Assembly: GCA_000467715.1 (NCBI GenBank)
Contig: AJFK01000678.1
Coordinates: forward strand, 1 to 35,013
Length of the DNA: 35,013 nucleotides
Origin: Hysterium pulicare CBS 123377
Lineage: Eukaryota; Ascomycota; Dothideomycetes; Hysteriales; Hysteriaceae
Direction of reading: 5' to 3'
This document shows, piece after piece, positions 2,877-24,697 of the stretch. Under the pieces are notes generated by a model. The model ran no database searches, was not told where the DNA came from, and was given only the letters and a program-made list of their open reading frames with translations. How positions within the stretch are numbered: position 1 is the stretch's first letter; every line of letters starts with the position of its first letter. A program made the translations under genes and the position numbers.

Positions 2877-4262
2877 ATGGCAGAACAAAATAACCCAACA
2901 GTAGGCCAAGTCTACAAAGCATCACGCACAAAGCGCCAAAGCGACCACAACCACTTCATCCAAAACCAATGTCCCGATACCCCCTCGCAAAAAACCATGG
3001 CCCACCACTTCACTTTCCTCCACCAGCACACCCAACAGCCATCATGGCTAAAGTCCCGTAATTTGCCTCCTCCTCCTCCCAAGGGAAACGACACCCTCAC
3101 CAACCCCATCCATCCGCTCTTCCACAAGCAAAACTGGCCAGAGCTGTCGCAGGAAGACTACGCCCTCATAACACCCAGCCTCCGCCTCGCCAGTCTCCTA
3201 ATCACGGAAGAGGCGCTGCGATCCTGGTGGTTGCATCTGTGCTGCGGCGATCTGCGAACAGATGGCCAGCGAACCTTCCTCGAGCCGCATCCGCACGAGG
3301 AGATGGCGGAGGGGTATGAGGCGGTGCGGGCGCGGTTCGCGAAGATAGCGGAGAGTATTACGTTCCGCTTTGTAGATTTCCAGGAGCTTCGGTCTAAAGA
3401 GCACAGCGAGGAAGTGGCGAGTGGAGCTGGAGATGAAGGAACCGATGGGGGATATACTTTTGAGTATAATGTCGAGGGTCAGTTCCGGTCTTTGCCCCTT
3501 GGTGCCGTGCAGCAGCACTTCAAGATGAGTAGGAGTACTTTGAAGATGTACCGAGTTGGCGGTGATGTGGATGCGGATGTAATCCTCGACGCCGAGATCC
3601 TTCTTAACCATAATAGACTCAGTCGCTTGAAGCGCTTCGATGAGAATAGTCAGCAGAGCCTGAAGACGAAAGAAATGTTCGTATTAACGGATACGATGAT
3701 CCATGAGCTTGCTCACGCTTTCGGGAGGTGTCCCCGTCCTCGCTACTTTAAAGAACATTACCACACACTTAGGGATTACATTCCGGAATACGGCTATTCG
3801 TGGACGATCTTCGCGTTTGGAAGTCCAGTCCAAACAGCCAATTTTGATGGCTTTGACGTCCTGTATTATTCGCCGAGTATAACCAGAACACCGGATCCAG
3901 AGAAGTTGAATCAAGGGTTAGAAGAAGCGTTCGGTAAAATGACTTGGGTGCCTATTTCAGATGAGTGGACGGAGATGTGGTTCCGGAAATCTATCTGGAG
4001 GGACTTTGCGAAGTATAAAGAGGAAGGGAAGTTGGAACTGCCGACAGCGCAGGAGATGAGGCTGGAGATTCGAGGGGATAAGGTTGGCGACGAAGACGTG
4101 TTCGGTCTTTACTTCGATGGAAAGGAGGTCGAGGAGGGCTCTGATCCTGAAGAAAATATCATCGGTTCTAAGCCTCCTGAACCTAAACAGGAGAGTAAGA
4201 AGCGAGACAAGCGTAAAGCGGAGCAGGAGAAATTAGTGGACCGCAAGCGCAGGAAGGGATAG
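2877..4262 (+). CDS. Putative HExxH zinc metalloprotease A, uncharacterised fungal family
   Basis: Single-exon protein of 461 aa with no family name I can assign. It carries HELAHAF (H276, E277, H280). Twenty-four residues after H280 comes the acidic PEYGYS motif (E304), and CPRPRYF and EHYH lie between them. This layout fits a zincin whose third ligand is a downstream Glu or His. Other landmarks are NPIHPLF, WWLHLCC in the first half, and EWTEMWFRKSIW and LELPTA after the active-site region. The last 30 residues are strongly basic (KKRDKRKAEQ, DRKRRKG), resembling a nuclear localisation signal. There is no signal peptide or membrane segment. The frame is open back to an ATG at 2700, but that extra stretch reads like untranslated leader, so I prefer MAEQN at 2877. 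The gene at 9633-10994 is a clear paralogue. Protease activity is inferred from the motif only. Confidence 0.8.
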   Translation: MAEQNNPTVGQVYKASRTKRQSDHNHFIQNQCPDTPSQKTMAHHFTFLHQHTQQPSWLKSRNLPPPPPKGNDTLTNPIHPLFHKQNWPELSQEDYALITPSLRLASLLITEEALRSWWLHLCCGDLRTDGQRTFLEPHPHEEMAEGYEAVRARFAKIAESITFRFVDFQELRSKEHSEEVASGAGDEGTDGGYTFEYNVEGQFRSLPLGAVQQHFKMSRSTLKMYRVGGDVDADVILDAEILLNHNRLSRLKRFDENSQQSLKTKEMFVLTDTMIHELAHAFGRCPRPRYFKEHYHTLRDYIPEYGYSWTIFAFGSPVQTANFDGFDVLYYSPSITRTPDPEKLNQGLEEAFGKMTWVPISDEWTEMWFRKSIWRDFAKYKEEGKLELPTAQEMRLEIRGDKVGDEDVFGLYFDGKEVEEGSDPEENIIGSKPPEPKQESKKRDKRKAEQEKLVDRKRRKG

Positions 4263-4410
4263 AGACCAAGAGGGATAGAAGATAGTCAGAGCACCATCTA
4301 GGAATGTCCGCATTTGATTAGATTTGAACCAAATACTCAAGCAAGTCAGCCTTGAATTTAAGTGAAAAATTGATATCCAGTTCCTCGTTTACCCCCTATA
4401 TGTCCTAAAT

Positions 4411-6063
<1,653 letters not shown>

Positions 6064-6163
6064 TGTGTCTACAGCGTCTTCAGTAGTTTGTGGGAGGCCA
6101 AAGCAGACGCGCACAAGGAAAGTTGAAGTGTGGATTCCGCCCCGAGGCCAGGGATCCGCCCCG

Positions 6164-6168
6164 CCAAT
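6164..6168 (+). promoter_or_regulatory. CCAAT box in the map2 / J-protein divergent promoter
   Basis: The 189 bases between the two divergent start codons (6063 and 6253) contain CCGCCAATGACG, a CCAAT pentamer running straight into a TGACG half-site. CCAAT is the target of the fungal Hap2/3/5 complex and TGACG resembles a CRE/ATF half-site. Position, 85 bases before the J-protein ATG, fits a functional element; the assignment is by pattern only. Confidence 0.4.
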
Positions 6169-6252
6169 GACGTTTCGAAGACACCCTGACAGCGAACTTC
6201 CACCTTCAACATCTTAAACTCCAACTCTCAAACCCAATGCTCGGAATGCTTC

Positions 6253-7122
6253 ATGCCACTCCGCCCAGCACCTCTCCCGCGACATCCTCGCACCCTCCCC
6301 CATCCCATACCCTTCGCATACCGCCCTCTACGCCCCCCATGCACATCTTTCCACACAACCACAATCCAAAGAACCGATAGCGCCCAACCGACCCACTACG
6401 AACTCCTCCAACTGCCCCCCTCCGCCTCCGTCGCCGAAATAAAAAAGCAATTCTTCGCCCTCTCCAAAAAATACCATCCAGACAAGAACCCCACCGACCC
6501 CACCGCCAGCACGCGCTTCGTGCAAATCTCCGAGGCATATCACGTCCTCTCCGTTGCGGAGAAGCGCTCTCAGTATGACCGCGAGCTTGCTGCTGCGCAG
6601 TCGAGATGGAGTGGGGGAGGAGGGGGTGGTGTGCCGAAGGGCTCATACAGCAGTGCGCAAGGGTTCGCGGGGTCTAGAGCCCCGAGTGGATTGAGTCGAC
6701 GGAGGACGCAGTTTCGTGGTCCGCCGCCTTCGTTTTATAAGTCGGGTGGGTATGGGAAGCAGGGTGCGAAACGCGCTGAGCATGCTTATCAGCATACTCC
6801 TGGCGCTGGCGGAGAGGCCGAGGAGGGTGCGGAGGGGAATGAGGGGGTGTATGGAGGGTTTGGGCCTGGGCAAACGAGTCATGGGAATGAGGTGCCGCAT
6901 TTTGATGATATGAGGCATAAGAGGATGCATGATACTGTTAATGAGTATATTAGTCAGAAGAGGAGGCAGAGGGAGGGTGGGAGGATGATTGATGAGTTGG
7001 GGAATAGCGGGATGATAATCAATTTCGTATTGGTTAGTGGCACGTTGGGGTTTATCGTGTGGACCTTGTCGCTAATTGGGAAGGTGGAGAAGAAGGGTGC
7101 GAAGAAGAAGGAAGATTCGTAG
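6253..7122 (+). CDS. J-domain protein with C-terminal membrane anchor, probably mitochondrial (DNAJC30/DNAJC4-like)
   Basis: Hsp70 co-chaperone of 289 aa in one exon. The first ~40 residues are rich in Arg, Pro and Ser/Thr without acidic residues (ending SFHTTTIQR), which suggests a mitochondrial presequence. The J domain follows at about 47-112: HYELLQLPPSASVAEIKKQF, then helix II with the invariant HPD in KYHPDKNP, then FVQISEAYHVLS and YDREL. A glycine-rich segment and a region rich in Gly, Glu and Ser come next. Near the C terminus one hydrophobic helix (about 253-275, MIINFVLVSGTLGFIVWTL) is followed by a lysine-rich tail. An N-terminal J domain with a single C-terminal transmembrane helix matches the DNAJC30/DNAJC4 type rather than classical DnaJ. 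The ATG at 6237 is in another frame, so 6253 is the start. Confidence 0.85.
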   Translation: MPLRPAPLPRHPRTLPHPIPFAYRPLRPPCTSFHTTTIQRTDSAQPTHYELLQLPPSASVAEIKKQFFALSKKYHPDKNPTDPTASTRFVQISEAYHVLSVAEKRSQYDRELAAAQSRWSGGGGGGVPKGSYSSAQGFAGSRAPSGLSRRRTQFRGPPPSFYKSGGYGKQGAKRAEHAYQHTPGAGGEAEEGAEGNEGVYGGFGPGQTSHGNEVPHFDDMRHKRMHDTVNEYISQKRRQREGGRMIDELGNSGMIINFVLVSGTLGFIVWTLSLIGKVEKKGAKKKEDS

Positions 7123-7463
7123 GATAGGGCGTGGGGCTGTATATATTAGGTTGCACTGCTTTGACAGTGCTTGTACACATACTCCGCAACGGCGCCGGGA
7201 GTTATGGTTAGATGAGAGAGGACCAAGGATTTCAGTTAAATGAATTAATTTTTGAAAATTCTTGCATTGAGGCGAAGAACTGTTGTACATGCCAAACGGA
7301 GCAGAACAAGAGCAAACGCTCAACACGTCAACAAAAAAAGATTTCGAAATCCAGTATCGCTATTGGAAACGAAATCGATCCCCCTCTCCAAAAATCTATA
7401 TGCATGCCTTGACAGCGACTCCGATTCTGATTCTACACAAATACAATAGATACAGTATCTTCT
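7123..7463. other. Convergent intergenic region
   Basis: 341 bases between the stop codons of the J-protein and porin genes. It must hold both 3' UTRs and polyadenylation signals. The short overlapping open frames on the plus strand (7212-7480) have no coding character. Confidence 0.5.
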
Positions 7464-8711
7464 CTAACCTTCGAAGGTGAAGCTGGTTCCGAGCTTGTGG
7501 CCGGCCTCGTTGAGTTTCTGGGTATCGAAAGAACCACCAATGCCGAAGGTGACACCGCTGTTAACCTTGGTGTTGTAGGCAAGGGAGGCAATGCCGCGGT
7601 CGTTGATCTTGGCCTGCATCACTTGTCAGTCCCCGTGCCTTTGAAGTTATGGGTTTTGACGTACCTTGGCGAATGACAGAGGGTCGATCTTGTACTTTCC
7701 AGCAAGCTCAATGCCAACGGTGGATCCGCTCTTAGCATCCCAAGAAGCTTTGGCACCAGCCTCGACGGCGGCATTGACCCTCTGGTAGTACGAAGCAGTG
7801 AAGATGTTCAAGCTGTTCGTGGCAGTGATGGCAGCGTTGTAGGTTGCGGTGGTATAGCCGAGAGCAGCAGAGTACTTGGTGACAGCAGCCTTCTGGACGT
7901 CGTATCCAACCTCACCACCAACCATGAAGCCCTCATGGCTAACGACACCATCGAAGAGGGCATTGACCTTGCCGCTGGGTGCGTAGTCGAAGAAAGCACG
8001 TACATGGCCCAGGGGCTGCTTGAAGTGGAGGTTGAGTTTTTGTCCCTTGTTGCCAGAGCCAGGATTGAAGTTGGCAAGAACCTCAGCCTTTACTCCCTGG
8101 GCAAGAGTGTCGTTCAGCTCCACCTTGGTGGCTAGGAGGTTGGCAGTATTCCATGATTGTGTGACGCTAATGCCTGTGCCAATGTGTGTCAGTCTTATGG
8201 CAGACCATATCGCGCAGCCGGGCGGTTGTAGAGCGTGAAATGAAAAAAATTGAATGTGCTTGGTTTTGCAGATAGGTATCGCTAGTAATGAACGTCGTAT
8301 ATATATACCGTTGCTAAGCCCCTTCTTGGCCTCGAGCTGTTGTGGAGAGATGTTAGCATTGGCTCAGTACAAGATGAATAGGATTCAACTTACAGATGAC
8401 GAGACAGGTCCATCGTGAGACGAAGTGCCCCTGGCGGTGAAGTTCACGCCGTTGGGTGCTTTCAGCTTAACCTCAAGGGCAGCTATTGCAAGTTAGCATG
8501 GCCACATTCAGGGTGAAGAAGGCGAACAAACCGGCAGCAGTGTGATAGAAGTCCTTGTTGATGAGCTGAAAAGGCAATTGTGAGTGAATTGTCCAATGCA
8601 CAGGATCCAGATAGTCCATACATCATTTGAAGCTTTCGCGATGTCGGAAAAGGCCGGGGGAGGAACCTTCAGGACAGCGGCGACCTTTGGGTTATCGGTG
8701 AAGGTGGTCAT
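7464..8711 (-). CDS. por1: Mitochondrial outer membrane porin (VDAC)
   Basis: Voltage-dependent anion channel, a 19-strand beta barrel that carries ATP/ADP and other metabolites across the outer mitochondrial membrane. Six exons on the minus strand: 8711-8622, 8565-8532, 8482-8394, 8336-8309, 8173-7665 and 7613-7464, giving 299 aa. Family landmarks are PAFSDIAKASND, LINKDFYHT, VTQSWNTANLL, LNLHFKQP, GYDVQKAA, YSAALGY, NIFTASYYQRVN, YKIDPLSFAK, KINDRGIASLAYN and the C-terminal HKLGTSFTFEG. Fungal porins are usually about 283 aa and begin almost directly at PAFSDIAK. This one has about 16 extra N-terminal residues (MTTFTDNPKVAAVLKV) and no later in-frame ATG before the conserved part. The 28-base exon and the other small 5' exons are supported by frame and by homology across every junction. 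Confidence 0.95.
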
Positions 8712-9632
8712 GGTGATGGATTCTCGGGGAGAAAGAAGTGGTGATGCTTGGTGTTGATGGAAGAAAAGGATTTGTCGCGCAAAGAAAAAAACAACGCAGG
8801 AGCTTTGTCGCGGAAGAGATGAAGGCAGTCCGGGAGTTTCGCGGCTTTTCCCGAACAATACCCCCAAAGTGAGCCGAATCCGGCAACGTGCGTTTCGACA
8901 TCTGTTCGCCCACCTGGGCACCAACATAGCACTCCTTGACATCGAACATCACGACATATTCTCCAGCCACTTCGACTTGATTCTATGTTGTGGATCATAT
9001 ACATCACACAAACACTCTTTGTTCTCGGAACACTCAACTCTCACAAAAGAAATCATGGCCAGCACTCCCGGGCTTCCAAGGCCTTCTAAAGTTGTCGCCT
9101 TTCTTATGGATCACTAGGCGTCCTGAACATCTAAAAGTAATGTGATTGTGCATATACAGACGGTAGTTTCCTTTTAGGCCCACCGTGTCTCCTTCAATTA
9201 CAATGTTTTCTCATTGTGCACGATCATCACTCTCATACCGGAGTAACACATCCTATGTCATGCGTTGTTTCTCGACAACCACTGCTCCCGAATCTCTCGT
9301 TTCCACAATCCTACTGAGCACCTACGTATCGGTGCAGAAGCACTTGTCGATTCTCACCAACATGCCAGAGACTTCTACAGCCACACTGTCATAGACGATC
9401 TTATGCCTTATCTCATAAACATGTCTCTAAAGCCCATTGTAGATCTATAAGACTAGGATGTGGTACCCCTTTGTGAGTGGTCGCCGTACATTGTGCGTCA
9501 CCAACATTGGCTTCATGTTCACACTTGGAAGACCAAATGCAGAAAGACAAACTGTCTTCAAATATCTAGATGCAAAGTAGGCAAGTAATTCCTTTCTGCA
9601 TCCTCCGTGTTACTACTCCCTACTACGACAAA
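8712..9632. other. Divergent intergenic region between porin and metalloprotease B
   Basis: About 920 bases that contain both promoters. The half nearer the porin gene shows nothing recognisable. The half from 9055 onward contains a relic-like open stretch, listed separately. Confidence 0.5.
9055..9600 (+). pseudogene. Possible decayed gene remnant (weak)
   Basis: At 9055 an ATG in good context (AAATCATGG) opens a 20-codon frame ending at 9117. Downstream, one frame stays largely open from about 9250 to 9600 and reads like protein (segments GAEALVDSHQHARDFYSH, MPYLINMSLKPIVDL, then VPLCEWSPYIVRHQHW). It is interrupted by two closely spaced stops near 9447-9456. I found no splice sites that join these parts cleanly and I recognise no family. 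It could be a gene remnant or just chance open sequence. Confidence 0.2.
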
Positions 9633-10994
9633 ATGTCTTCTCTGAACGATAAAGTATCTTCTCTGAACGATAAAATATCTTCTGTCTTTCCATCAATACC
9701 ACCACCAACCTACAAAGTCTTCTTACCAGAGAAAAACGACGTCACTCTGGGCCTCGTCCTCCGAGACACTTATGAAAACGAAAAGAAGGCACGAGACACA
9801 TTTCGCTCTGACCATGGTCCTTGCTGGAGTAGCTTCCAAGCTATATTGCCATACTTCGAAGCCGATGAACAGAATAGCGCGGGAGCATGGCTCCAAATGC
9901 GTGGGTTGCCGGACCCTATCAACGACGATCATCTAGACAACCCCATCCATCCAATCTTCAAGCAGAAGAACTGGAGTAAGATTTCCAATGATGATTATGA
10001 GCTTATAAAGCCATGTCTTCGTCTTGTAAGTCTCCTGATTGAAGAAGAGTCGCTGCAAGCATGGTGGATACATATTTGCTGCTCACATCTAGACTTTGAC
10101 GACCGAGGGCTCTACCTTAAGGAACCTCCGGGTCAGAACGCTCGGGAGGCGATCGAGATCGTCAAGAATCGGTTTGCTGAGATTGCTAAGCGCATCACGC
10201 TCCGGTTTCTTAGCGCCGACGATCCAGACAACGACAGGGTTCTAGGGCGCATCGGTTGCGGGACCCTCCACGAATACGGGTGTGATGGGAGAACGCTGAC
10301 GCATATTGGCCAGGAGAAATTGAATGTAAAACCTGTGATCAGCTTTCGTCGCGAGTTTTTGATCCGGTTGAGGCAATATCACGCGAACGCGCAGCATCGA
10401 ATGATGGAAACTGAGCGGTTCCGTCTCGCAGCGGTAATATTGCATGAGTTAGGACATGCCTTTTACGTTTGTCCTACTCCGCGGTACTTCTTGGAGCACT
10501 ACCATAGTCGCGAAGAAATGGTCCCGGAGTGTGGTTATTCGTGCGTAATCTCCACGTTTGGTAGTGTGGTTAACCAACTTGTGACCGACTCAGTTAACTT
10601 CTTATACTACTCACCACAGGTAAGCAAGGCTTCTTCTTTAGAAGCTTTAGCTACCCCAACTTGGGTGCTCATAACGCATGAATGGACGCAACTTTGGTTT
10701 CGGAAGAGTATCTGGAATGACTTTGCGAAGTTTCACACCGAAGGCCGACTTGAGCTGCCAACTGCTGGAGAGATGGGGCTGGCAATCCGGTGTCAAGTCC
10801 ACAACGTCAAGCCGAAGCCGAAGCTGCAGTGTGTTGTCGAAGTTAACGGGCACGAAATTTCGCACCACTTTTCAACGGTCAGAAAATACGTCCCTTATCA
10901 TGGGAAGAGTCGGAGACTCCTTGCAAAATACGTTCCAGAAGATTGGGAACCAGATGTGTTCCACAAAATAAAGACCATCGTATTCGGAGGTTGA
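9633..10994 (+). CDS. Putative HExxH zinc metalloprotease B, paralogue of A
   Basis: Single-exon protein of 453 aa, clearly related to the gene at 2877-4262. Shared blocks are NPIHPIF, DYELIKPCLRL, SLLIEEESLQAWWIHICC, then HELGHAF (H271, E272, H275), CPTPRYF, EHYH, PECGYS (E299) and EWTQLWFRKSIW, DFAK, LELPTA, EMGLAIR. Spacing from the second zinc-ligand His to the PE motif is 24 residues in both, so the active-site module is conserved while the flanks have diverged. Unlike A it has no basic NLS-like tail and ends in a different sequence. There is no signal peptide or membrane helix. An upstream in-frame ATG at 9570 exists, but MSSLNDK at 9633 is the more natural start. The first codons are a tandem repeat. 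Function is unknown; proteolysis is inferred from the HExxH motif. Confidence 0.78.
   Translation: MSSLNDKVSSLNDKISSVFPSIPPPTYKVFLPEKNDVTLGLVLRDTYENEKKARDTFRSDHGPCWSSFQAILPYFEADEQNSAGAWLQMRGLPDPINDDHLDNPIHPIFKQKNWSKISNDDYELIKPCLRLVSLLIEEESLQAWWIHICCSHLDFDDRGLYLKEPPGQNAREAIEIVKNRFAEIAKRITLRFLSADDPDNDRVLGRIGCGTLHEYGCDGRTLTHIGQEKLNVKPVISFRREFLIRLRQYHANAQHRMMETERFRLAAVILHELGHAFYVCPTPRYFLEHYHSREEMVPECGYSCVISTFGSVVNQLVTDSVNFLYYSPQVSKASSLEALATPTWVLITHEWTQLWFRKSIWNDFAKFHTEGRLELPTAGEMGLAIRCQVHNVKPKPKLQCVVEVNGHEISHHFSTVRKYVPYHGKSRRLLAKYVPEDWEPDVFHKIKTIVFGG
9636..9677 (+). repeat. 21-base tandem repeat at the start of metalloprotease B
   Basis: Two adjacent 21-base units beginning TCTTCTCTGAACGATAAA, differing at one position, followed by a partial third unit (TCTTCTGTC). 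In frame they encode SSLNDKV, SSLNDKI and SS. This is a length-variable feature of the protein's N terminus. Confidence 0.85.
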
Positions 10995-16684: not shown

Positions 16685-18037
16685 ATGAGCGATCAAACTT
16701 CCGACAGTCTAAACCTCCTCGAACAACAGCCCGCGCTGCAGATATACACTCAAATATGCTCCATCTTCCCGCTTCCCGCTTCCGCCTCGCATTCCGCAAT
16801 GATCAAGACCCTAGAAAAGGGCCTTGAACGGCTTTCGGCCAGCTTCCCATGGATAGCAGGCCAAGTGGTGAACGAAGGCCGCAGCGAAGGGAACTCTGGC
16901 GTCTTCAAAATCGCCCCGTTGACGAAAACACCCGGTCTGGTTGTACGAGATCTTCGAGGCGATACTTCAGTTCCGTCACTGTCGGATATGCGAAAAGCCA
17001 ATTTCCCAATGACCATGCTGGATGAATGTCTCTTCTGCCCTCGCAAGACGATACCGACACCCGAGGAAGCCGCATCGGGATTCCCCGTCTTTCTACTGCA
17101 GGCAACGTTCATCGAGGGGGGTTTCGTACTCGCGTTTCTGGGCCAGCATCAGACGATGGATGGGACGGGACAAGGACGTGTTATGGATCTTCTCTCGAAG
17201 GCTTGCCGCGGCGAGTCGTTCACAGACGAGGAACTGGAAGCTGGGAATCTGCCTCGCCGCGATATCATGCCCTTGCTCGGCGCCAACGAGAAGGCGAGCG
17301 CAGATCTCGAATTCCAGACTATGAAACCCACGCCCGGCGGCCAGGAAGCAGCGCCGTCTGCTCTTGTGAAATGCACGTGGGCCTACTTCACCTTTCTCCC
17401 CGACGCGCTTAAGGCGCTCAAGGAACTGGCTATGACAACTGTTCCCTCAGGCTATGTATCCACCGACGACACCATCACGGCTTTCATCTGGCAATGTGTG
17501 AGTCGCGCGCGTCTTCACCGCCTAGACGCTTCTACGGAGTCAGCATTCGCCCGCGCCGTTGATGTACGACGGCAACTAGGTATCTCACCGGGCTATCTAG
17601 GCCTTATGCAGAACATGACATACAACGTATCCACGCTTGAAAAGCTGGTCTCGGAACCAGTAGGCGTCATCGCATCGCAGCTTCGATCACGTCTGGAGCC
17701 CGAATTACTAGCGCACCAGACGCGGTCTCTGGCAACGCTCCTCCATCAATCCTCGGACAAAAACGCCGTAAAGTTCACAGCCGGTATTGATCGTTCGTCG
17801 GGCATCATGTTGAGTTCCTGGGCGCAGCAAGACTGCTACGAACTCGATTTTGGCCTTGGATTGGGAAAGCCTGAGGTTGTGAGAAGACCGAGGTTTGATG
17901 CGTTTGAGAGGCTGATGTATTTGATGCCGAGGGCGAGGGATGGAGAGATTGCGGCTGCGATCTGTTTGAGAGATGCGGATATGGAGAGGCTCAGGGAGGA
18001 TAAGGAGTTTGCGAGGTTTGCGACGTATATTGGGTGA
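16685..18037 (+). CDS. BAHD-type acyltransferase, trichothecene 3-O-acetyltransferase-like
   Basis: Cytosolic acyl-CoA-dependent O-acyltransferase of 450 aa in one exon. The catalytic HxxxD motif is present as HQTMDG (H155, D159), and the family's structural DFGWG motif appears near the C terminus as DFGLG (from D388), followed by GKPEVVRRP. The length is typical of BAHD enzymes. The overall layout, including FPWIAGQVV near the N terminus, TDDTITAFIWQCVSRAR mid-protein and VDVRRQL, is that of the fungal group annotated as trichothecene 3-O-acetyltransferase-like. Most members sit in fungi that make no trichothecenes, so the true acceptor is unknown. No other secondary-metabolism gene lies next to it here, which argues against a biosynthetic cluster in this window. 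The C-terminal 60 codons use noticeably more G-rich codons than the rest. Confidence 0.88.
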   Translation: MSDQTSDSLNLLEQQPALQIYTQICSIFPLPASASHSAMIKTLEKGLERLSASFPWIAGQVVNEGRSEGNSGVFKIAPLTKTPGLVVRDLRGDTSVPSLSDMRKANFPMTMLDECLFCPRKTIPTPEEAASGFPVFLLQATFIEGGFVLAFLGQHQTMDGTGQGRVMDLLSKACRGESFTDEELEAGNLPRRDIMPLLGANEKASADLEFQTMKPTPGGQEAAPSALVKCTWAYFTFLPDALKALKELAMTTVPSGYVSTDDTITAFIWQCVSRARLHRLDASTESAFARAVDVRRQLGISPGYLGLMQNMTYNVSTLEKLVSEPVGVIASQLRSRLEPELLAHQTRSLATLLHQSSDKNAVKFTAGIDRSSGIMLSSWAQQDCYELDFGLGLGKPEVVRRPRFDAFERLMYLMPRARDGEIAAAICLRDADMERLREDKEFARFATYIG

Positions 18038-19353: not shown

Positions 19354-21100
19354 ATGGACGGATACCAGATGCAGCACACAGAGGTTCCTTCGACCACACA
19401 ACCTCGCCATGTTGCTTCAGCAGGTTCAAAATAGCCGTACAAAGAATTTTCCGCCCACGCCTCAACTCCCAGTGAGATTAGCACGATTACTACACCCCCG
19501 ATATTGGTGATTCAGGAAGGAGATGATCACTTCTTCGAGGACGATGCACAGTTGCCATACGCGCTTATCAAAAACTTGGGACACGGCCACAGTGCCACGG
19601 TGGAGATGGTTAAGGATGTCAACACGGGATCTGTTTTTGCTCGCAAAGTCTTCCGGATATGGGGATCTCGCGACGAAAGAAAACGCATTTTTGATAACGA
19701 GATCAAGGTAATACGCCGCCTTGCTCCGCACCACCACTTTATTCGCATATTTGCCACGTATGTCGCTAAACGTGAAGTTGGGTTGATACTTGATCCAGTC
19801 GCTGATGGCGGGGACCTCGAGATGTTCCTACAGAATTTCAAGGAAGCGAAAGCTGCCCAACTAGTGCAACAAGAGGACACTAGAACACTCGAAACTTCCT
19901 TTGGGTGTCTAGCTAGTGGTCTAGAATTCATGCATCGTCAAAAGATTCGACATAAGGACATAAAGCCACAGAATATTCTGATCCATAAAGGCTCCATAAT
20001 CTATACAGATTTCGGATATTCCCTTGATCATAGCGCAATTAGTCGGAGTACTACCACTGGTAGGCCCGACACTTTCACGAGGAAATACTGTGCTCCGGAA
20101 GTGAGCGACTGGGGACCTCGGAATTCAAAATCGGACATCTGGTCACTCGGCTGCGTCTTCCTGGAGATTCTATTTGCTCTCCATGAAGAGCTTGTACCCC
20201 CAAATCCCGGCATATCCTATCACGACAGCCTCCAAGACAGCCTATTACGATCATCGCTAAATGACCTGAATCGTCTCGGAATGATCACGTCCGATATGCT
20301 CCACCCTCGGCCGGAGGACCGTTCTTCAGCAGAGGTCATTGCTTCTAAACTCAGGCGCTGTGAAGCGGATCGTTTCTGTGCCAAATGCAAAGCCGAGCAA
20401 AGAATCCAAAAGTGGAATAATGGCAATGATATACCCAAGTCAATGCCGCAATATTCCGCGTTGCCGGCCATGGAATCAGGCCAGTCTCCAGGAAGAGACT
20501 CCCTAGCCGCGTATGGGAACAAGCAGGCTTATGCTCTCTCTAGAATCTTTCCAAAAGACGGTGAGGTTTGCTTTCAATAAGATATTCTGAATTATTCGCG
20601 GCCTCGCCTAACATGTTCCAGTCATCTTCCCATGCCGCTCACTGAGTATTGGTTCATGGCGTCATGTTGTCCCGATCGGAACGGATCTTGTCGCCTTCTG
20701 CTTACTCGAGAAGTGCCGCATCAAATATTTTATCCAGCAAGGCCTAGAAAATTACATAGTAGACTACTCCTTCTCACACATTAAAACCGTTACGTCAGAG
20801 ATTGGAGATATGAACGCTGGGGATGCCTCGCAACGCCCCGGGGGCCTAACTATAGAGCTTTTTCAACCTCCGTATTTCTACTGGTTCTTCTGGCAATCTG
20901 GTTCATACGAGGAATCGGTCGACTTTACTGAGGGACAGCAAGCGTCACAGGTTCTGGTGCACCATCTCGGAGGAGATCCAAAAGAACTCAGCGAGCAGCT
21001 GGAAAAACTAGTCTCGTTGGAGTCATTCCAGAATCGACACAATTTCTCACCGCACAGGGAGATATCTGACGATGATTCTGACGATGATTCTTGGCGATGA
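19354..21100 (+). CDS. Protein kinase with conserved C-terminal extension; in-frame TAG near the start
   Basis: Ser/Thr protein kinase of a fungal accessory type. Exon 1 runs to 20560 and exon 2 is 20622-21100; GTGAGG and TTCCAG borders keep the frame. The kinase domain starts near 19560: glycine loop LGHGHSATV, VAIK-type Lys in FARKVF, catalytic HKDIKPQNIL (HKD in place of HRD) near 19951, TDFG near 20005, YCAPEV near 20090 and WSLGCVFLE. All catalytic residues are present. Exon 2 encodes about 160 residues with IELFQPPYFYWFF, DFTEGQQAS and LVHHLGGDPKELSEQL, and a Ser/Asp tail. I know no name for this domain. The oddity is a TAG at 19432-19434, in frame between the ATG at 19354 and the kinase domain. 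The next in-frame ATG (19606) lies after the glycine loop. Either the gene is broken or translation uses an unrecognised exon. Confidence 0.72.
21065..21088 (+). repeat. 12-base tandem repeat encoding SDDD
   Basis: Two exact copies of TCTGACGATGAT in a row, followed by a further TCT, at the end of the kinase gene. They encode SDDDSDDDS just before the stop, giving an acidic C-terminal tail. Confidence 0.85.
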
Positions 21101-21382
21101 TCCTGACTGGTAGACTGATAGAGTATGTCTCCAAGAAGCAAGTCAAGTGAAACTGGTAATATAAAATGTTGTCCACCACAATAAAACCTGATATGCAACG
21201 TTGAAATACCATAACGCCGGCCGGACAGGATCAGCCCATTCCATTTTTCAAAGATCTAACCTCCGTTTCTTTAGGATTCTCTTCATCTTCCGTAGCCTCC
21301 TTTTCGCCCTCTCAGACCCCCATCACAGCTTCCCCCCTCTACAACTCTCCGCTTCCCCACCCATACCAGTAAAAGGCTTCAA

Positions 21383-22160
21383 CTAAGCATCACAAATCAA
21401 CTCAAACCCCTGATTCCCAAACTCCGGGTCCGGGATAATAGTACTCGCGACGGCGTTGGTAGAATCGAAATTCTGTACTTTGGCCGTGGATTGTGCTTGT
21501 ACGCATTGATCTAAGACACATCAAACCTCCTATTAGCCATCCATCCTATCAATGACGCGGAGCAGAGTGCGAGGGACACAAAGGAAGTAGTACAAGAAGC
21601 AAGCACCGAAAGAAGAAAAGCCAGGGCGAGCAAAGAAAAAAAAAAGACCTACTCCTCTGATCATCACAATCATTCACCGACAACCCCCCCTTATTCCCGC
21701 CCCCGTTCTTATTCGCAGTCTGCGAACACTCATTAAACTGATTATCGCAAGTCCTCTAACCCCCAAATCATCAGCATCCATTCATCCTATACTCTTCAAA
21801 CCCACCCCACCGTCTCCCCCATCCACCATCCCTCCATCCCCCCTCCCTCCAAAACATAAATCACAAACTCACCTGCGCCGCACTCTTGAAATCCGGAAAC
21901 GTATCCCCCCCAACAGAAAACGGCCGTTTAGCATCCCCACTCTCCGTAATCGCGCCCGCCGCCGCGCCGCCCAAACTCCCGTTAAACGTCTGCAGGTTCG
22001 ACACGGCCGCAACTTGGCGGTAGAAGAGCGTGTTGCGCGGCATCAGGTGGAGCAGGTTGTCCGGGACGAGTTTGGGGGACGGGTTGGCGGTTGTGAGGGC
22101 CGGGGAGGTGAGGAGGAGGGTTAGGAGGAGGGGGATGGGGAGATGGAAGGGGATGTGCAT
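21383..22160 (-). CDS. Small secreted cysteine-containing protein
   Basis: Predicted extracellular protein of 172 aa, family unnamed. Three exons on the minus strand: 22160-21873, 21755-21653 and 21510-21383. The first 25 residues form a classical signal peptide: a short N region, then LPIPLLLTLLLTSPALTTA, with probable cleavage before NPSPK. The mature part has a Pro/Asn-rich start, a Gly/Ala segment (SLGGAAAGAITESGDAKRPF), then all five cysteines in exons 2 and 3 (RTCDNQFNEC, SVNDCDDQRNQC and the final LICDA). Exon 2's frame is fixed by GGTTAG and GTAGGT borders, and the joined product keeps a regular Cx6C and Cx6C spacing. Similar small Cys-poor secreted proteins are common on ascomycete surfaces. 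A role as effector or wall protein cannot be told from sequence. Confidence 0.75.
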
Positions 22161-23056
22161 TTTTCTTTTTGGTGGTGGTTGGTTGGTTGGTGTTGGGAGC
22201 TGGATTTGGATCTGGGTCTGAGGTGTGAATTTGGTGAAATGTTGCTGGAGTCGTGAGTGAGTTGAGATGGGAAAGTTAGGTTGGGATTAGAAAGCTTGAT
22301 TGCTGTAGTAAAAGGCGGCAGATGCCCCGCATAAATTCTCAGCCATAAGCGCGTCGCAAAAATGTCTTGGTCCATGAAGAGAATCATGTTGCGTGGGACC
22401 CGATTCGGTGATCGTGTGTGGGTGTTGAGACGGATGTGAAACGGAGACGAGATGGATGGGACGAACCACGTCAACCCCTGACAGAACACTGAACGGGATA
22501 CAGTTTCGGACACGAGAACGCAATTTTGAGAATATTAAGAAAATAGACTTTTAAAATATGGGGGTTTCGACTATCTAATTAAAAGAATTCCTATCTTGTC
22601 CAAGTTCTGCGCAGCAAAAGGAGCGACAAGAAAAGAATGTTGAGAGACTGAGGGAAGGAGGGAGATACATGGACGACTTTTTCGGTCAGTTGGGATAAAT
22701 CATTACGTAGACTGTCGAGAGACACGTATTTGATTCCCATTACAAATATTTACTTTGAGTTTGTTTGACCAACCATCTATAGAAAACAAATCCGCCCAAG
22801 GAAAGAGCAAAAAAAGGGAGACAAAGATCAATGGATTGACCATTGTGTTATTTAGACAATAGATGCAACCCACGCTTACAATGCACGCTCACCAAGAAAA
22901 AACGCCGTGAGAAACGGTGAACGCTAGTCCCTATTAACCATTTGGTGACCGCCAAAACCCATCAAGATATGAAAGATCGCTCTAAGAGGAAGTGTGTCGT
23001 TTACTGTCGTGAACAAGCCGTCGCGGCCACTGTGTTGATATCATGTTTCGGAACTT
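22161..23056. other. Intergenic region upstream of the secreted protein gene
   Basis: About 900 bases between the start of the secreted protein gene and the stop of the sensor gene, both on the minus strand. The minus-strand open frame at 22121-22513 overlaps the secreted gene out of frame and is a shadow. It must carry the secreted gene's promoter and the sensor gene's 3' UTR. No other structure is recognised. Confidence 0.45.
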
Positions 23057-23902
23057 TCAAAAGTTCGCCGCTGCATTTGGCCGTCCACCGGGGTTGTGGT
23101 ATTGTTCCAAATTTGACTGGAATGGGGTGTTTGTGCTCGCACTAACGGGCTTGTCACCAAGAGCGGATCCAGTACCAGCCATGAGATCGTCGTCATCTTC
23201 TCTCACACCCTTGTTGCGACCCCAGACCCTCCAACAGACGATGGCGATACCTCCGAGTAGAATGACTCCTCCGATACCGCCAACGACACCGCCGATGATC
23301 TTCTTTGAGCTGGTGCTGAGACCAGAGCTTCCTCCACTTCCTCCTCCGTTGTTGACGCTAGCGGCGGATGTGATGGTTGCTTGGCCGGTTGTGTGAAGAA
23401 CGGTGGATGAGCCAGTTGAGGTTGCGACAATGGTCTGATCACCGCTCATAGTAGTGAAGACAGTTGTGAACTGTTGAATTCCAGTCGATACTAAGGCCGA
23501 AGTGACGACGACCACTGATGACTTTTGTGCAGACGAGGAATCGGCTGCTTTCGTACTGGACACTTCTGCTGATGACGCCTCTGGGGTGGATGAAGCCGCG
23601 GCAGAGGACGGAGCGGGAGTCGACGAAGCTGCAATCACATCAGAAGACGATGCCGGTGGTGCGGAACTCGGGGCCACGCTGGATGCTGGTGGTGGTGTCG
23701 AGCTTGCAACTACTTCCGATGACGATGCCGGTGGTGCGGATGTCTGCTGCTGCTGGCTAGCCGTCACTCCGGTTCCGCTGGCTTGTTGTCTCTTGCCTCT
23801 GTGCATGAACTGTTCGATGCCGTCGAGGTCGAGGGCGGTCGACAAGGCCATCAGGGCCATCAAGGTAAACAAGATCCATGACTTCCGCTGTGGGTGTAGC
23901 AT
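23057..23902 (-). CDS. Single-pass Ser/Thr-rich surface protein, Mid2/Wsc-like stress sensor type
   Basis: Type I membrane protein of 281 aa in one exon. A signal peptide (WILFTLMALMALSTALDLDG) is followed by a dibasic HRGKRQQ site that Kex2 could cut. A ~140-residue Ser/Ala/Pro/Thr-rich region comes next, with repeated PASSS and SSTP units that should be heavily O-mannosylated. Then TVFTTMSGDQTIVATSTG, a Gly/Ser linker, one transmembrane helix (IIGGVVGGIGGVILLGGIAIVCW) and a cytoplasmic tail with an acidic DDDD stretch and Asn/Pro-rich end. This is the layout of Mid2/Mtl1-like cell-wall integrity sensors. There is no cysteine-rich WSC domain, so Mid2-like fits better than Wsc. The function is inferred from layout only, since such sequences align poorly. 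Confidence 0.8.
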   Translation of the reverse strand: MLHPQRKSWILFTLMALMALSTALDLDGIEQFMHRGKRQQASGTGVTASQQQQTSAPPASSSEVVASSTPPPASSVAPSSAPPASSSDVIAASSTPAPSSAAASSTPEASSAEVSSTKAADSSSAQKSSVVVVTSALVSTGIQQFTTVFTTMSGDQTIVATSTGSSTVLHTTGQATITSAASVNNGGGSGGSSGLSTSSKKIIGGVVGGIGGVILLGGIAIVCWRVWGRNKGVREDDDDLMAGTGSALGDKPVSASTNTPFQSNLEQYHNPGGRPNAAANF

Positions 23903-24697
23903 GCTTGCGATGTTTCTAGGGTGGAAACGAGTGTGAAGAACCAGGTAAGAGTTTGCTGGGGAACAGGCGGTCGCGATGATGCGTAAGCTGTTTCAGTGAA
24001 GTGTCCTCGCTTTCGCCCGAGTAAAAAGGGGGGCAGCTGAACAACGAAGGGCCGTAGAAGAGCAAAGCGAGTTGTGGGTCTAAAGTGGTGGATAAACGAA
24101 GGGAAGAAGAGGAACGAAGGGAAGCACAAAGGAGAGACAGTCTCGTCTTCTGGTGGTGTGATGGCTGGGTGTGGATGACAGGGCGGCGGACTGCTGCAGA
24201 GTCAAGGTGCCTGGGCTTGGCGCGAACGAAATCACGAGCAAGGTTGCCAAAATAGCGACGCTAGTGCATGCGACTCTATTCAACGCCCGTCAGCCCCCGG
24301 CACGACCTGGCTGGCCTCGAAAATTTTATACCGAACCCGCCGACCAAGTCGAAGTTGAGTGGAAGTTTGAACGAGCAAGAAAACCCAGTAGCTAGCTCGC
24401 TGCACGTGAAATGAAATAAACATGCTAAAATCACCCTTCCGAAGAAGCTGCTTACGCTTTTCCTTCCCCTCACGCGTCTGTTTTCTTTGATGGGCGATGT
24501 GTGAAGCTCTGTGATGGCCTTAATCCCATTCGAGCTAGATCCTCCCATCCGTCTATCGTCCTCCTCCCCTGTTCACTCTGCATCCTGTGCGTCATACTCT
24601 GCAAACCACACACTTTTCACTCTACAATTCCTCTCTTATTCGATAGATTCCCCTCTCGAGATCCACCCCCTAGAAGACTCTTGCGAGAAAAAAAAAT
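23903..24697. other. Divergent promoter region, sensor and PQ-loop genes
   Basis: About 800 bases holding both promoters. A palindromic CACGTG E-box lies at 24403-24408, about 290 bases before the PQ-loop ATG, and a pyrimidine-rich leader (TCC and CTC runs) precedes that ATG. No coding region is convincing. Confidence 0.45.

Follow-up and report, generated by a model that had tools for sequence, protein, structure and literature searches.

A multi-copy family of HExxH proteins with a putative Glu-zincin type metal site in Hysterium pulicare

Results

Two paralogous HExxH genes in one contig

The stretch analysed here, referred to as the window, comprises 35,013 nucleotides of Hysterium pulicare CBS 123377 (contig AJFK01000678.1 of assembly GCA_000467715.1, positions 1 to 35,013 of the forward strand); among the 596 contigs of the 37.2 Mb genome it is the one designated C460. 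It carries two genes, A and B, whose products contain an HExxH motif and which lie on the same strand with a gap of 5.37 kb (Table 1). BLASTP aligned the two proteins with 142 of 399 residues identical (36%, E 2e-83), which identifies the genes as paralogues. The ATG codons taken as starts are plausible but unproven; the in-frame open reading frames (ORFs) open further upstream on the plus strand, at 2700 for A and 9570 for B.

A first-pass annotation of this DNA, made from the sequence without database searches, had described a set of motifs common to the two proteins, and all of them could be located in the translations. These are HELAHAF/HELGHAF, CPRPRYF/CPTPRYF, EHYH and PEYGYS/PECGYS (A/B where they differ), the last placed at +24 from the second His of HExxH in both proteins, together with the flanking motifs NPIHPLF/NPIHPIF, SLLITEE/SLLIEEE, SWW/AWW followed by HLCC/HICC, and EWT..WFRKSIW.DFAK.

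Table 1 Genes A and B and their sequence features in the window
Feature	Position	Strand	Remarks
Gene A, HExxH family member	2877..4262	+	open ORF; 461 amino acids from the ATG at 2877
HELAH of A (H276, E277, H280)	3702..3716	+	candidate zinc ligands and general base
EHYH of A, residues 293-296	3753..3764	+	only the leading Glu widely kept
EYGYS of A (E304, G306, S308)	3786..3800	+	E304 proposed as third zinc ligand
C-terminal basic cluster of A, from residue 442	4200..4256	+	pattern scan; possible nuclear signal
Gene B	9633..10994	+	453 amino acids from the ATG at 9633; closest relative of A in the genome
HELGH of B (H271, E272, H275)	10443..10457	+	
ECGYS of B (E299, G301, S303)	10527..10541	+	

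A and B belong to a family of at least 17 copies

The genome was searched with A, B and four paralogues as queries, and the same loci were returned repeatedly. The family comprises at least 17 copies including A and B, a point that the first-pass annotation had missed; the loci lie on 11 contigs and come from the best-scoring candidates, which were those that the search evaluated. Two are in the window, three each on C387 and C468, two on C548, and single loci on C92, C161, C543, C542, C500, C42 and C4. Identity to A ranges from 17 to 38% across 13 aligned copies. In fourteen copies, among them A and B, a single frame stays open across the conserved region; the C542 and C500 copies shift frame, by an intron or a frameshift, and the C548 74k copy (L014, minus strand) is open once a 53-base GT-AG intron is removed. 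This apparent intron splits the HExxH codons themselves (HE-T-AH), and the neighbouring paralogue is open there. An eighteenth place, C387:91845-92345 (L009:3846-4346, minus strand), lies between intact copies and holds only the part that follows HExxH, with E-x-G-x-S-W present. Because HExxH is absent from all six frames between its neighbours, this place looks like the remnant of a family copy.

A maximum-likelihood tree with 17 rows joins A and B as sisters (support 100/100), and likewise the two C548 copies (100/99) and C468_38k with C468_36k (99/99); the three C387 copies form a group (97/98). Of its 14 inner branches, six are starred and six open; the branches of C42 and C500 are long, and their pairing may be false. 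Since several of the local groups are sisters in the tree, the family grew at least partly by local duplication. A purely local history is opposed by the pairing of C92 with C161 across contigs (96/96) and by the separate position of the third C468 copy.

Invariant residues of the family include HExxH and a downstream Glu

The 14-copy alignment has a mean column identity of only 22%. Besides the start Met, nine positions are invariant in it (A numbering): L74, H79, P100, H276, E277, H280, E304, G306 and W374. Five of these nine belong to HExxH and the downstream E-x-G (H276, E277, H280, E304 and G306), and the near-invariant positions include E293 and S308. Of the 224 gap-free columns (start Met counted), 26 fall in the span 276-308, where the invariant columns are concentrated (hypergeometric p 0.0013, for a span picked after looking). 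HExxH and a downstream E-x-G-x-(S/A) are both present at all 17 loci. The occurrence of HExxH exceeds chance: from composition, the motif is expected about 0.05 times per 450-residue protein, compared with a homologous HExxH at 17 of 17 loci, which as paralogues are not independent observations. Outside this region, the copies share an N-terminal block, L-x-N-x-(I/V/L)-H-P-x-F ... P-(A/S)-L-x-L ... WW, and a C-terminal block, W-x-x-x-W-F-x-K-x-x-W.

These data agree with the earlier proposal that selection acts on a metal-type site: none of the 14 aligned copies departs from H, E, H and the downstream E and G, and the histidines of HExxH are retained by every one of the 17 paralogues. The 24-residue spacing between the second His and the Glu, which had been described as invariant from A and B, is not a property of the family, in which the offset varies from 23 to 36 residues and equals 24 in only 5 of the 17 copies.

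The third metal ligand had been sought in either EHYH or PExGYS. Column counts in the 17-row core alignment removed EHYH from consideration: its first His occurs only in A and B (2/17) and its last in 7/17, while its leading Glu, E293, is kept in 16/17 (13/14 in the smaller alignment). The C42 row, aligned differently in the 14-copy alignment, shows a His there. The PExGYS alternative stood as a candidate, with a Glu equivalent to E304 on the C-terminal side of HExxH in all 17 copies and a putative role in metal binding. Thus, because the EHYH histidines are not conserved, E304 (E299 in B) is the only family-wide candidate for the third ligand.

Cellular location

A simple hydropathy scan of the copies, with starts chosen by judgement, revealed no clear signal peptide or membrane helix. 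The highest mean hydropathy over 19 residues in any copy is 1.64, and the top 9-residue value within the first 45 residues is 1.68 (C4); the upstream in-frame starts give 9-residue values of 1.91 for A and 2.27 for B, over a short stretch. Within the reach of such a scan, which depends on the starts chosen, A and B lack a clear secretion signal, as had been noted before. The family is therefore likely to be intracellular. Secreted fungal metallopeptidases of families M35 and M36 carry a signal peptide, and a secreted M35/M36-like protease was judged unlikely from the motif and from the lack of a clear signal. A pattern scan found basic clusters, short or long, in 7 of the 17 copies; they are long in A and C387_93k, and in A, C387_93k, C548_72k and C4 they lie close to the C-terminus. 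As the other ten copies, three of which are themselves partial, have no cluster by the pattern used, a nuclear location does not emerge as a family trait.

Comparison with databases and SprT-like proteins

The first-pass annotation could assign A and B to no named peptidase clan, and a placement in a named family did not emerge here either, with nothing convincing found in Pfam, NCBIfam, PHROGs or the PDB sequences. Of 14 members, none passed the cut-off in Pfam-A (best E 0.015, CRA_rpt, 15.9 of 21.4 bits) or in NCBIfam, where the best match (E 0.05, 13.6 of 80 bits) is a sub-threshold one between the NF038122 metalloprotease and residues 213-284 of A, touching the HExxH region. The same 14 members gave no convincing E value against PHROGs; the best (0.0027) matched phrog_2767, of unknown function, to 18 residues of B that include HExxH. 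Neither A (best match MCM7, E 0.23) nor a family profile (best match La-related protein 7, E 0.39) found anything significant among PDB sequences, and snake venom metalloproteinases matched the profile at the HExxH helix below threshold (E 0.68-1.2). The Met-zincin and Asp-zincin patterns HExxHxxGxxH and HExxHxxGxxD are absent from the 17 motif strings. In a search for prokaryotic or viral relatives, pattern scans with A and B, using two narrow patterns each, returned 110 matches in viral contigs and 69 in genome contigs with no confirmed relative among them, and no plasmid or phage sequence matched A in tblastn. No paper on such a family was found in one open-access library, as judged by titles and abstract openings.

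In Pfam, SprT-like (PF10263) alone drew matches from more than one member (2/14, best E 0.068), the best of which scored 13.5 bits against a cut-off of 25.6. A whole-genome search for SprT-like proteins returned seven places, four of them over the cut-off and none a family member. In hhalign, the family aligned to three SprT-like proteins of the same genome with a probability of 17.6% over 19 columns, which correspond to the HExxH helix alone; decoys gave 9.7% with both sides reversed and 0.7% and 0.4% with one side reversed. The sub-cut-off score, the genome search and the 19-column alignment together led us to reject membership of the SprT-like family. The C42 family member has a SprT-like gene with the motif HEMVH about 26 kb away, at C42:64095-64424 (L022).

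Genes around the family loci

The block of genes placed between A and B in the first-pass annotation is there: by Pfam, the gap holds an ORF of the M24 metallopeptidase family (an assignment at family level; the putative map2), a DnaJ gene and a Porin_3 ORF. Elsewhere in the window, positions 16685-18037 contain a trichothecene 3-O-acetyltransferase-like gene of 450 amino acids (Pfam TRI-like_N, 2.9e-63), and within 20001-24000 the guanine-cytosine skew changes from -0.195 to +0.205 between adjacent 2-kb bins.

Partner genes were compared across 19 flank stretches on the ten other contigs, 18 of which yielded 78 ORFs of at least 180 amino acids; intron-split genes and the window's own neighbours stood outside this comparison. 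No gene family common to different loci was found among these long ORFs at E 1e-6, and the one matching pair lies inside a single stretch. Pfam, run on 10 of the 78, identified one HET-ankyrin gene, one Vps15-like kinase, one dynamin-like GTPase and one sub-threshold Tri3 match, the other six having no match. An ankyrin-HET gene (L036:4299-8093, minus strand; Pfam HET 5.2e-26) adjoins the C548 family pair.

Discussion

Our analyses favour, with a probability of roughly 60%, the interpretation that A and B represent an undescribed, multi-copy and probably intracellular family of zinc metallopeptidases with a Glu-zincin type site. A metallopeptidase of this type best accounts for the retained H, E and H, the separately spaced Glu, the variable loop and the presence of the catalytic Glu in all 17 copies. 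The sub-threshold matches to NF038122 and to the snake venom metalloproteinases, both at the HExxH region, point the same way. In such an enzyme, the HExxH histidines together with the Glu of E-x-G-x-S would hold the zinc, the Glu of HExxH would activate the water that cuts the peptide bond, and the conserved N- and C-terminal blocks might make up the remaining fold or the substrate cleft. Local duplication accounts for at least part of the growth of the family, which has diverged, and the divergence of the tandem copies suggests that each has its own substrates. More tentatively, this may be an undescribed intracellular Glu-zincin family, recognisable by HE-x-(A/G/T)-H ... E-x-G-x-S-W together with a private N-terminal block, which has expanded to at least 17 highly diverged copies, partly through repeated local duplication. 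Such a pattern would be expected if proteolysis were regulated and each copy had its own substrates, possibly in self/non-self recognition or in defence against intracellular genetic parasites.

Several observations weigh against a zinc metallopeptidase. There is no significant match to a peptidase family, so that zincin homology would rest on the motif by itself; the two best PDB matches, MCM7 and La-related protein 7, are non-peptidases, and the columns shared with SprT-like proteins are confined to the HExxH helix. L74, H79, P100 and W374 are conserved outside the metal motif. Finally, the residue that follows S-W is Glu in most copies, T in A and, after S-C, V in B.

Among the alternatives, proteins that bind zinc at the same site and are no longer peptidases, having put the zincin fold to use in binding or regulation, are unlikely though still worth weighing. 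Pseudo-enzymes tend to lose the catalytic Glu over divergence of this extent, which counts against such a role for a family that has this Glu in 17 of 17 copies. The peptidase activity of the family is itself putative, and PMC11266112 describes metallopeptidase homologues without activity as a known class. A structural HExxH that binds no metal, in some other enzyme or a scaffold, would be in keeping with the lack of detected significant homology to known zincins; it is made improbable by the two His, the Glu and the spaced Glu, all kept in 17 of 17 copies despite a loop that places the last of these anywhere from 23 to 36 residues away.

It is similarly improbable that the copies are very distant SprT-like or WLM members, that is, nuclear proteases of protein-DNA crosslinks with a changed third ligand. 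The two Pfam matches to SprT-like and the basic clusters, above all the long ones in A and C387_93k, point that way. Against this stand the genome search, in which none of the seven SprT-like places was a family member, the short and low-probability hhalign match, the ten copies, some of them partial, with no cluster by the pattern used, and the position presumed to match the third His of SprT, which is His in only 7 of 17 copies. There is also a slight chance that metal is bound with E293 of EHYH rather than E304 as third ligand. E293 is nearly as widely kept, but it is missing from the C42 copy, whose HExxH and E-x-G stay intact, while E304 has no such exception.

If the metallopeptidase interpretation holds, the enzyme type is ordinary and the family appears undescribed: at least 17 likely intracellular proteases would have gone unseen by Pfam-A, NCBIfam and PHROGs, a gap in the catalogue of fungal proteases. 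The invariant residues are direct targets for mutants, and the divergence of the tandem copies makes substrate specialisation testable. PMC3650047 places about 52% of HExxH occurrences within known Pfam domains and suggests that there may be more HExxH metalloprotease families still to be discovered.

Relation to known metallopeptidases

With HExxH conserved at all 17 loci, the family shows the defining motif of the zincins (clan MA). Both the family and the SprT-like proteins have the HExxH helix. The third ligand of the latter is a His, whereas the family has no conserved third His. ImmA/IrrE (M78) and similar peptidases are intracellular and have HExxH followed by an acid on the next helix; M78 is not among the families listed for the 14 members in the per-member Pfam scan. 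PMC7804941, which lists fungal families, includes one unassigned HExxH protein of Aspergillus niger, An06g01580, and the family resembles it, by description, in being an unassigned fungal HExxH protein. The Glu-zincin class is defined in PMC3890501 by a glutamic acid as third ligand. Like the thermolysin-like Glu-zincins, subclan MA(E), the family has HExxH and, set apart from it towards the C-terminus, an invariant Glu; it differs from them in lacking detected sequence homology and in having an extra conserved N-terminal block. Where M4 has NEXXS and M36 has GEGWSD, as given in PMC7804941, the family has E-x-G-x-S-W.

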